Assembly: GCA_013821605.1 (NCBI GenBank)
Contig: JACDGP010000045.1
Location: 1-38,024, forward strand
Source of the DNA: Herpetosiphonaceae bacterium
GTDB taxonomy: Bacteria > Chloroflexota > Chloroflexia > Chloroflexales > Kallotenuaceae
Length of the DNA: 38,024 nucleotides
Direction: 5' to 3'
Part shown: one piece after another, positions 3,152 through 6,291 of the stretch
How positions within the stretch are numbered: position 1 is the stretch's first letter
Layout of the letters: the number at the start of each line of letters is the position of its first letter
Notes under the pieces: model-generated
Database searches by the model: none
What the model was told of the DNA's origin: nothing
The model's input: only the letters and a program-made list of their open reading frames with translations
Translations under genes and position numbers: made by a program

Positions 3152-4264
3152 CTACTGGGGCGTAAAGCTGGTTTGGGCATGCTGGCCAGTAGCAAACTCT
3201 ACGTCGACCGTAATAACGGTGCTGCTCGTCACGGGACCAGTCGGAAAGCTGACTGCTGCCTCACCGTTGCTATCTGTCACAGCATCAGTAAACGCATCCA
3301 GCGCCGGATAATGCACGCCGAAGGTTGTCGTGACCCCAGTTAGTGGCGTTTTATTGGTGGTCAAGCGTCCACACACTATCTCCATCATGTTCTGAGCAGG
3401 TTGCGGGAGTGTCACCCACGCCTGGGCTCCATCCTTCACCGCCGGCGCATTTTGGCTGCATCCCGCAGTGGAGACCGCTGTGCCAACACCCGGCGTCGGC
3501 TGCGGTGGAGCTGCCACCGGTGTGCTACTGGGCAACGGCTGAGTTATGGTTGGGGCCGGCGCAAGCGCGATGCTACCCGAACGTAACTCCGCACCTAAAC
3601 GACCGAGCAGTACTTTGAAAGGGTCGGGCTTGTCTGGATGCCATTCGAAGCGCGCCCGTTCGAACCACTGTGTCCACACCGTTTCACCGCTGCTATTGGT
3701 CTCCATTGCTGGCTCGGTCAATGGTAGTCCAAAGAGCGCCAGGCTGCGCGCATAGGCATCGAGGCCAGGCCGCTGGAGCCCATGGGTCTGCCAGTAGCTT
3801 TTGAAGCCCTGCCCATTGTATGGAAAGCCTTGGTCACACACATTATGGCTGGTTTGGGGAAACCACAAACAGTTAGCCTGGGGCCCACCGGCATGCGGCT
3901 CGCTATGCCAATCGCGACCAAGCTGCTGTAGTCGTTCGACACCCAGTCGTCCCAGTAGGATGCCGGGGGCAACCCGGTTTGCCACAACGATATCGGGATG
4001 CAATTCAAAGCGATTGCGTTCGAACCACTGGGTCTGGTATATCTGATCTGTATCCGGATTGGTTGCCAGTGCCGCCAGTGTGAGCGGGAAACCGAAGACC
4101 GGCAAGCCGCCATTCTGCTCCCAAAACTGTTGGAAAGTGCCGCTCAGACAGGGCGACGGGAGCGCGGAGCCTGGATAGCAGGAATCGGCAGCTCTCGTGA
4201 GCTCCGATGGAATGATGATACTGGCAATCAGCAAAGCAACGAGCAGGGCCATGAAATGCCGCAT
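3152..4264 (-). CDS. Secreted protein with two GG..FG.P / WFER.RFE.HP repeats
   Basis: The protein is 370 aa with a clear Sec signal peptide (about residues 1-25, cleavage near TRAA). The mature part starts with FQQFWEQNGGLPVFGFPLT, then WFERNRFELHPD and LLGRLGVERL. A second copy follows: SYWQTHGL, LFGLPLTEP, WFERARFEWHPD and LLGRLGAEL. This tandem is common in exported proteins of Chloroflexota; its role is unknown to me. After a Pro/Thr linker, about 90 C-terminal residues look like an immunoglobulin-like beta domain. The ATG at 4264 has AAGGAT at ribosome-site distance. It lies head-to-head with the gene at 4440. Confidence 0.8.
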   Translation of the reverse strand: MRHFMALLVALLIASIIIPSELTRAADSCYPGSALPSPCLSGTFQQFWEQNGGLPVFGFPLTLAALATNPDTDQIYQTQWFERNRFELHPDIVVANRVAPGILLGRLGVERLQQLGRDWHSEPHAGGPQANCLWFPQTSHNVCDQGFPYNGQGFKSYWQTHGLQRPGLDAYARSLALFGLPLTEPAMETNSSGETVWTQWFERARFEWHPDKPDPFKVLLGRLGAELRSGSIALAPAPTITQPLPSSTPVAAPPQPTPGVGTAVSTAGCSQNAPAVKDGAQAWVTLPQPAQNMMEIVCGRLTTNKTPLTGVTTTFGVHYPALDAFTDAVTDSNGEAAVSFPTGPVTSSTVITVDVEFATGQHAQTSFTPQ

Positions 4265-4353
4265 ACGTGATCCTTATCACTACAGAGAAATGATATATGT
4301 TGCGTCAAACCTACCCAGAGTAAGGCAATTTGCCTGATTCACAAATTGGGGGC

Positions 4354-4382
4354 TTGACACAGAACATATGTTCTTATATACT
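4354..4382 (+). promoter_or_regulatory. Near-consensus sigma70 promoter with LexA-type palindrome in the spacer
   Basis: A perfect TTGACA (4354-4359) is followed by exactly 17 bases and TATACT (4377-4382). The spacer holds the perfect 14-bp palindrome AGAACATATGTTCT (4361-4374). It matches the GAAC-N4-GTTC core of the Gram-positive-type LexA/DinR SOS box, a class also reported for LexA of Dehalococcoides (Chloroflexota). A repressor here would block polymerase. The promoter reads into the gene at 4440. A 7-bp inverted repeat (4326-4332 / 4342-4348) lies just upstream. Confidence 0.75.
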
Positions 4383-4439
4383 GTAAACAGTCCTAAGACG
4401 TATCCAAGCAGTATATACGACACTGAAAGGAGCCCTGGT

Positions 4440-4982
4440 ATGGCTGTCACAAGTCGCGATCTACATAGCAATGCTTCCTTGCGCCGGCAAGTTGTACGCC
4501 CTACTCCGGTTGCACGCGTGTATCCGACGACGGCCCGCCTACCTTATCTGCTGACGTTGCTGCTGTGTGGGTTCGCGTTAATCCTGGTCGGCAATAGTTT
4601 GATCCAGTGGGGTCAAACCAAACTGGACGACATGCGCTATGGTCGCCCGCGCACCACCCATCTGGAAGGCTGGGTCGGCCATAACGAGGCGACCGGCAAC
4701 CAAACGCAGTTCGTCGCCATGAACCTGAACCGGCAAGTCACCGTTTTTGAGATCCCTGGCGGCGATGTGGCTCAGACCCGCACCTTGAAAGGCCCCTATC
4801 TCTTTGGTGCTAACGAAGACCTGACCCCGATCCACCTGCAACTCCAGTATATCAACGACGACAAAGACATCGATCTGGTGATTAACGTCAAAGACGAGCA
4901 AATCATCTATATCAACGACAAGGGCACCTTCCGCTTGATTACCCCGCAAGAGCGTGCCGCATACGAGCAAACTCACCATTAG
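4440..4982 (+). CDS. Single-pass membrane protein, putative SOS-regulated, unknown function
   Basis: The ATG at 4440 has AAAGGAG eight bases upstream, giving 180 aa. The basic N-terminal tail of about 33 residues is followed by one membrane segment (LPYLLTLLLCGFALILVGNS) and an extracytoplasmic domain of about 120 residues. That domain contains a stretch resembling a VCBS/FG-GAP blade (INDDKDIDLVINVKDEQIIY). Its promoter carries a LexA-type palindrome, so induction by DNA damage is a reasonable inference. Small single-TM proteins under LexA are division inhibitors in several bacteria, but no homology to them is visible here. Confidence 0.8.
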   Translation: MAVTSRDLHSNASLRRQVVRPTPVARVYPTTARLPYLLTLLLCGFALILVGNSLIQWGQTKLDDMRYGRPRTTHLEGWVGHNEATGNQTQFVAMNLNRQVTVFEIPGGDVAQTRTLKGPYLFGANEDLTPIHLQLQYINDDKDIDLVINVKDEQIIYINDKGTFRLITPQERAAYEQTHH

Positions 4983-5016
4983 CGCCGGCCTAGCATCGCC
5001 TGTGTCGGGGTAGGTT

Positions 5017-5063
5017 ATACTGCGACCGTTCGCACCGTCAGGTGCTAGGGACGGTCGCAGTAT
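5017..5063 (+). promoter_or_regulatory. Nested hairpin overlapping the DUF58 start codon
   Basis: ATACTGCGACCGT (5017-5029) is perfectly repeated inverted as ACGGTCGCAGTAT (5051-5063). Inside the 21-base loop sits a second inverted repeat, GCACC (5032-5036) / GGTGC (5041-5045). The ATG of the next gene (5062-5064) lies in the right arm, so folding would hide the start codon. No U-run follows. It could be a translational control element, a protein-binding palindrome or a weak terminator. Confidence 0.6.
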
Positions 5064-6291
5064 GTTTAAGCAAGAAACCCTCGCCACCCTCGTTGTGATC
5101 TTTGCGATTGCGCTCATCTTGGGCCAACCGGTCTTGGCCTGGATGCTAGGGCTACTCTTCGTGACCGTGCTGCTTGCAGACCGCTGGAGTAGGTGGAGCC
5201 TAGGACGGGTGCGCTACGAGCGAAGCCTGAGCCAGTCACACGCCTTTGTCGGTGACAAGGTCGTGCTCACCATGCGCGTGGTCAATCCCAAACTCCTCAG
5301 TGTGCCTGGACTACGCTGTAGCGATGTTGTGCCAGCCCGCTTCGATTATGGCACGCCCGTGCTCCCTTCCACCAAATCGAACAGCGTGGTACTCAGTCGT
5401 GGTCTGGCGCTGCGGCCGTATGAAGCCGTGAGCTGGCAGATCGAATTGCAATGCAAGGTACGCGGCCTCCATTTCTTCGGTCCCGTCGAGTTGAGCGCCA
5501 GTGATCCGTTTGGCCTCAACACTACCAGCACCAGCATCGACGCACCCACACGTTTGATCGTCTACCCGCAGCTAGCGAACCTGCCGAACCTCACGCTACG
5601 GCCCCGGCAGCCCATGGGTGATCGTCGCACCCAACGCCAACTGCTGACCGATCCGACCCGTACGATCGGTATTCGTGACTATCAAGCCACCGATCCGTTC
5701 AAAACAATCCACTGGGGTGCAACTGCCCGCCGTGGAGCGTTACAAACCCGCATCTTCGAGCCGAATACCACGCTCGATCTCCTGATCGTGCTTGATCTGG
5801 ATACCTTCGAGCACTATTGGGAAGGTATACACCCCGACTTGATCGAGTATCTGATCAGCGTCGCTGCCACGGCCGCCAGCGCAGCAGAGCGTGGTCAATG
5901 GAACTTCGGCTTATATGCGAATGCTGGATCGGTCGATAGTGAGCAACTGGCCCGCGTTCCATTGGGACGCAGTCCGGCACAACTTGGTGCGGTGCTCGAA
6001 GCTTTGGCTAAACTCGTGCCGTATTCGGTCGTCGGCTTGCCGCAGCTCTTACGCCGCATCGGGAGCGAATTCCCCTGGGGCGCGACGGTGCTGGTGATCA
6101 GCGCTGTGCCATCCCAAGACATGCAGGGGACCTTGCTGCGGCTGGCCGAGCGCGGGCGCAGGGTCCGCTGGTTGTATGGCGGCGATGGGCGGCTGCCGGT
6201 TATACCGGGCGTCGAGGTTGAAGCTCTGCCCTTTGATGCCGCCTGGCAAGCCACGCATATCACGCAAATAACAGTTGACCAAGCTAGGTGA
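5062..6291 (+). CDS. DUF58 domain-containing membrane protein
   Basis: The protein is 409 aa. Two adjacent N-terminal hydrophobic segments (residues about 7-40) are followed by a beta-rich region and the DUF58 signature: GIRDYQATDPFKTIHWGATA then LQTRIFEP (about residues 195-235). A von Willebrand A-like stretch follows, with LLIVLDLDT. DUF58 proteins usually sit beside MoxR-type AAA ATPases; none is nearby. The start codon lies in the arm of a strong hairpin and only a weak AGGGA is upstream, so translation may be controlled. It is followed by a membrane protein 20 bases later, probably in one operon. Confidence 0.88.
   Translation: MFKQETLATLVVIFAIALILGQPVLAWMLGLLFVTVLLADRWSRWSLGRVRYERSLSQSHAFVGDKVVLTMRVVNPKLLSVPGLRCSDVVPARFDYGTPVLPSTKSNSVVLSRGLALRPYEAVSWQIELQCKVRGLHFFGPVELSASDPFGLNTTSTSIDAPTRLIVYPQLANLPNLTLRPRQPMGDRRTQRQLLTDPTRTIGIRDYQATDPFKTIHWGATARRGALQTRIFEPNTTLDLLIVLDLDTFEHYWEGIHPDLIEYLISVAATAASAAERGQWNFGLYANAGSVDSEQLARVPLGRSPAQLGAVLEALAKLVPYSVVGLPQLLRRIGSEFPWGATVLVISAVPSQDMQGTLLRLAERGRRVRWLYGGDGRLPVIPGVEVEALPFDAAWQATHITQITVDQAR

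Follow-up and report, generated by a model that had tools for sequence, protein, structure and literature searches.

LexA boxes and SOS-induced inhibitors with a single transmembrane (TM) segment are both known kinds of element, and the architecture of inhibitors of the YneA/SosA type has been described previously (PMC13396833, PMC6851548). Division arrest or adaptation of Chloroflexota after DNA damage appears to be undescribed in the searchable literature, and a literature search on Chloroflexota LexA regulons returned no study of the gene considered here. A Dehalococcoides paper of 2002 reportedly described a Chloroflexota LexA that binds sites of the GAAC-N4-GTTC class, and occupation by LexA of the space between the -35 and -10 hexamers is the textbook way to shut off a strong promoter. 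We analyzed a stretch of 38,024 nucleotides from a Herpetosiphonaceae bacterium, hereafter the window, in which a site of this class lies within the promoter of a gene for a small protein predicted to cross the membrane once. The features of the locus are the following:

4354-4359, + strand: -35 hexamer TTGACA, from the sequence and a promoter scan; TTGAC is kept in the promoters of homologues
4361-4374, no strand assigned: LexA-type SOS box AGAACATATGTTCT in the promoter spacer, scoring 17.6 bits with a matrix from recA and lexA sites of relatives only
4362-4373: core of the SOS box, GAACATATGTTC, read from the sequence
4377-4382, + strand: -10 hexamer TATACT, from the sequence and the scan; TATA(A/C)T is kept in homologues
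4426-4432, + strand: probable ribosome-binding site AAAGGAG, from the sequence
4440-4982, + strand: predicted single-pass membrane protein of 180 aa (paralogue A), from homologues, alignment and an AlphaFold model (pLDDT 86)
4539-4607, + strand: predicted TM segment, about residues 34-56, a hydrophobic stretch in the predicted helix 30-67, N-terminus inside, with a basic N-terminal tail
4653-4937, + strand: predicted extracytoplasmic beta domain, residues 72-166, from eight predicted strands, FG-GAP_3 and Foldseek

The sequence-only reading had described a TTGACA-N17-TATACT promoter whose spacer is nearly filled by a perfect palindrome, and direct reading of the sequence confirmed this: the 17-nt spacer (4360-4376) contains the perfect 14-bp palindrome. 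With 11 of 12 matches, this is the sole promoter-like site found by the promoter scan in 4200-5200; since shuffled sequence yields 0.9 sites of equal quality, the promoter alone is not significant. The 14-mer is present once in the window and in 0 of 100 shuffles. Because the bare core GAACN4GTTC occurs about as often as chance predicts (1 in the window versus 0.6 expected) and was found not to be enriched across the host genome (65 occurrences versus 107 for the reversed pattern), the core by itself proves nothing and was not used as evidence. In the 5.88-Mb genome, the 12-bp core sequence occupies just two places, the promoter described here and a position about 45 bp ahead of mraZ. It is the combination of core and promoter context that is non-random and highly specific.

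One full-length LexA is encoded in the host genome (contig C204, 176.7 bits). Its promoter bears cGAACAGGTGTTCa / ACGAACAGGTGTTCAC 100 bp upstream of the gene, just past a plausible -10 hexamer, and host recA (contig C178) bears GCGAACAGACGTGCTA 132 bp upstream; among relatives, G[AC]AC-N4-GT[TG]C stands at a similar position in 30 of 36 recA genes, mostly as CGAAC-N4-GTGCTA. The box in the window agrees in class with these lexA and recA sites, which upholds the earlier assignment of GAAC-N4-GTTC to LexA, and it sits inside the 17-bp spacer, where it would be placed to block the promoter. When the host regulon was sampled with sequence patterns, further sites were found upstream of mutS (at 36 bp), of a DUF5131 gene (51 bp) and of a DUF6504 gene (41 bp). 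With the matrix derived solely from recA and lexA promoter sites of relatives, control windows had a median of 1.0 bit, and the best scores upstream of homologues of the window gene far exceeded those of controls (Mann-Whitney p 1.5e-24); the genomes are related and not independent, so this p value overstates the case, while the direction is clear. In families f3 and f4, most lexA promoters lack the strict box and carry degenerate boxes instead. From operator class and placement, it is very likely that the window gene is under LexA control.

Several other loci of these genomes drew our attention. The box upstream of mraZ, which heads the division and cell-wall cluster, directly follows the MraZ TGGGG repeats (host contig C211, L002 1501-1512) and is intact or slightly degenerate in six of six f1 genomes and in G012 and G038 (loci including L263, L265, L258 and L267); a LexA box upstream of mraZ has a precedent in gut Firmicutes, and binding by B. 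subtilis LexA has been shown (PMC3998124). A 74-aa orphan on host contig C16 (L019:973-1197) consists of the LexA DNA-binding domain only (PF01726, E 8e-15), without the peptidase domain, and is a possible competitor of LexA at its sites; similarly short matches to this domain were found in G002, G004 and G005. Across Chloroflexales families, a gene for a DUF6504-like protein of about 95 aa lies behind a promoter with a LexA site in its spacer (host contig C214, L061:1554-1781; L316, L325-L327) and is apparently another SOS gene, of obscure function. The DUF5131 (phage Gp37/Gp68-like) gene, with TAGAACTTACGTTCTA as its site (host contig C81, L227:518-1282), is a likely further LexA target. Short proteins without a Pfam match, sharing a pattern like FLMWYDDxxKxTxAxKIxxAxxAYxxRF, are encoded behind SOS-type promoters at L312:1158-1460 and L324:966-1217. 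In two genomes, a single open frame of 715-732 aa matches recA in two separate pieces (G011:C60:15407-17404 and G047:C74:57105-59102), suggestive of an intein near RecA position 200.

Of 50 homologues, 36 have the strict box in the 270 bp upstream, compared to none of 172 equal-sized control windows elsewhere in the same loci, and in 26 of 42 cases, spread over four families, it lies inside the promoter spacer. The composite pattern TTGAC-N2-3-GAACN4GTTC-N2-4-TATA has 62 matches, distributed over 39 of the 60 order-level genomes, whereas the reversed control pattern gave no match in the 60. Exactly two of these promoters are in the host, before the window gene and before its paralogue on contig C159. 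About half of the 30 composite-promoter loci that were read precede a member of the window-gene family, most others precede the DUF6504-like gene, and one, in G050, precedes lexA. Paralogue A genes of the Roseiflexus type have lost the strict box, and one apparent loss, in G011, is explained by a transposase-like gene that separates the family gene from the box promoter. The box is thus kept upstream of orthologues at the same position in the promoter, as the sequence-only reading required. Given this conservation and the match to the host lexA and recA sites, its suggestion that the product is an unrecognised damage-response protein has good support as far as regulation is concerned.

The coding sequence 4440-4982 proved to be correctly placed, evident by the start MAVTSRDL, which homologues keep as MAVTS[RK]xL, and by AAAGGAG at 4426-4432; a longer open reading frame from 4368 was rejected as the gene, as it begins inside the SOS box. 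In the AlphaFold model, the basic residues 1-33 lead into the helix 30-67, and the beta region 72-166 has pLDDT values mostly above 90. This predicted topology makes the product a predicted envelope protein. Invariant stretches of the alignment include RYG, GPYL and TP, and the beta domain contains a loop of the DxNxDGxxDL type that is degenerate in the window protein. The earlier remark that the protein lacks visible homology did not stand: it is part of a large, unnamed family in which 40 of 45 members match FG-GAP_3 weakly (best E 4.3e-7), the window protein itself reaching 13.2 bits (E 0.14) against a Pfam cut-off of 26.9. Of 60 order-level genomes, 59 have homologues, usually a pair of paralogues, and relatives in sequence records come from Chloroflexales bacterium ZM16-3, Oscillochloris sp. 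ZM17-4, Roseiflexus sp. and Herpetosiphonaceae. The family also extends to f24, a distant Chloroflexota family whose copies have longer N-termini and number 4-8 per genome, with the strict box just upstream of 7 of 18 copies. A search of PDB sequences returned no relative, and the best Foldseek match, the two-bladed lectin RSL, is weak (E 0.013) and was taken as a hint of fold only. RSL trimerises into a propeller, and a trimeric propeller assembly of the window protein is a guess. The protein is a member of an uncharacterised family with an ectodomain that is weakly FG-GAP/propeller-like.

The host paralogue, termed paralogue B (C159: 4070-3531), is 50% identical to the window protein and has a box, GAACAAGCGTTC, about 65 bp upstream. 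It heads a conserved operon of three genes with 1-bp gaps. Second in the operon comes a glucosaminidase-like protein with a TM anchor, whose PF01832 match (E 1e-4) stays below the cut-off, and third an M23 peptidase (E 5.6e-22). In 18 loci the B copy has the glucosaminidase-like gene behind it, and the HES motif of the encoded enzyme is invariant. Most copies of the M23 protein, the host's included, have HxD instead of the usual HxH, so the activity of the host peptidase is unsure. The hydrolase genes adjoin paralogue B only and not the window gene. Genes downstream of the window gene (DUF58, DUF4129 and DUF3048) were weighed as possible co-regulated partners but dropped, since f1 relatives do not keep them next to the gene.

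We infer a mechanism in which, without damage, LexA bound to the spacer operator would block RNA polymerase; RecA filaments would then provoke LexA self-cleavage, the promoter would fire, and the single-pass membrane protein would be made, its short conserved tail (MAVTSRxL) staying in the cytoplasm and its compact beta domain facing outward. During the SOS response the protein would most likely work at the envelope, where it would probably slow or reshape septal or wall synthesis until repair is finished, and the SOS-controlled paralogue would do likewise beside its co-transcribed glucosaminidase-like protein and M23 peptidase. A role of the window protein at the cell wall is probable, by analogy, because of the operon partners of the paralogue and a layout common with YneA, ChiZ, SosA and DivS; a delay of division proper, brought about in the manner of YneA or SosA, is plausible but tentative on the same analogy. 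A broader reading, which we hold to be rather unlikely, is that propeller-ectodomain membrane proteins and SOS-induced hydrolases (the glucosaminidase and M23 types) form an unnamed kind of checkpoint effector that holds or remodels the septal wall during DNA repair, across nearly the whole of the Chloroflexales and in one further Chloroflexota group, with LexA perhaps acting through mraZ as well.

That the palindrome arose by chance in an unrelated promoter might be thought from the bare core, which is expected 0.6 times per window and lacks genome-wide enrichment, but the constant placement of the box in four families and at both paralogues, together with zero control matches, has already refuted this. 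Another repressor could instead own the operator, for example one of the ArsR/SmtB type with GAACA-N2-TGTTC sites, which AGAACATATGTTCT appears to resemble as well; the flanks are moreover A/T, versus C/G in the Bacillus LexA site. This is very improbable, given that the matrix built from recA and lexA promoter sites alone recovers the palindrome and that a promoter of the same composite pattern precedes lexA in G050; in the loci of relatives, no conserved regulator gene was found beside the window gene.

A different kind of alternative accepts LexA control and assigns the ectodomain to adhesion, sensing or general envelope stress rather than to division or the wall. FG-GAP-like domains are often adhesion modules, the model weakly matches the blades of the RSL lectin, and the f24 copies are numerous, none of them neighbouring a wall hydrolase in the loci examined. 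The conserved operon of the paralogue, with its two genes of wall-hydrolase type, argues against it, and a single TM segment with an ectodomain is the usual layout of Gram-positive SOS division inhibitors (PMC6851548). We consider adhesion, sensing or stress a possible but less favored function, and retain as the probable reading a LexA-controlled envelope protein that slows or reshapes septal or wall synthesis in the SOS response.

Among the collections of RegPrecise 3.0 are one for Chloroflexi and one for LexA (PMC3840689), so that the LexA regulatory prediction may already be present there; in the literature searched, we found no description of the protein family, its ectodomain or the coupling to wall-hydrolase genes in Chloroflexota. 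The family offers an order-wide candidate with a strong operator for linking the SOS response to wall hydrolases in this phylum, and the promoter signature is precise enough for reading the SOS regulon from sequence in these little-studied bacteria.

Compared to the Gram-positive LexA box CGAACRNRYGTTCG, the host box has the same GAAC-N4-GTTC core and a middle that fits RNRY, whereas the preferred flanks here are (T/C)AGAAC...GTTC(T/G) and the recA sites are asymmetric (CGAAC-N4-GTGCTA). With FG-GAP/VCBS repeat proteins (PF13517), the family shares the DxNxDGxxDL loop, beta blades and the weak matches of most members, but the window protein falls below the Pfam cut-off, has only about two blades and is membrane-anchored. 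The proposed resemblance to SOS division inhibitors stood in its architecture, the predicted single TM segment (AlphaFold helix 30-67, basic N-terminal tail) followed by an extracytoplasmic C-terminal domain, and gained from the hydrolase operon of the paralogue; it did not extend to a LysM domain or to a place beside lexA, which is on contig C204 while the window gene is on C145. SosA of S. aureus and DivS of C. glutamicum are alike in having a single TM segment, an extracytoplasmic C-terminus, no LysM and SOS control, the last predicted for the window protein; SosA, however, is a protein of 77 aa whose gene adjoins lexA, whereas the protein here has 180 aa and a folded domain, and its gene is not linked to lexA. 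YneA of B. subtilis and ChiZ of M. tuberculosis have LysM, whereas Pfam matched neither LysM nor another known wall-binding domain in the window protein, and no sequence similarity to either was found. The window protein further differs from both in its larger beta ectodomain and in belonging to a family with two SOS-controlled paralogues, and is like them in its predicted LexA control, one N-terminal TM segment and an extracytoplasmic C-terminal domain. ChiZ is itself reported to be a wall hydrolase; here, the hydrolases are encoded beside paralogue B.
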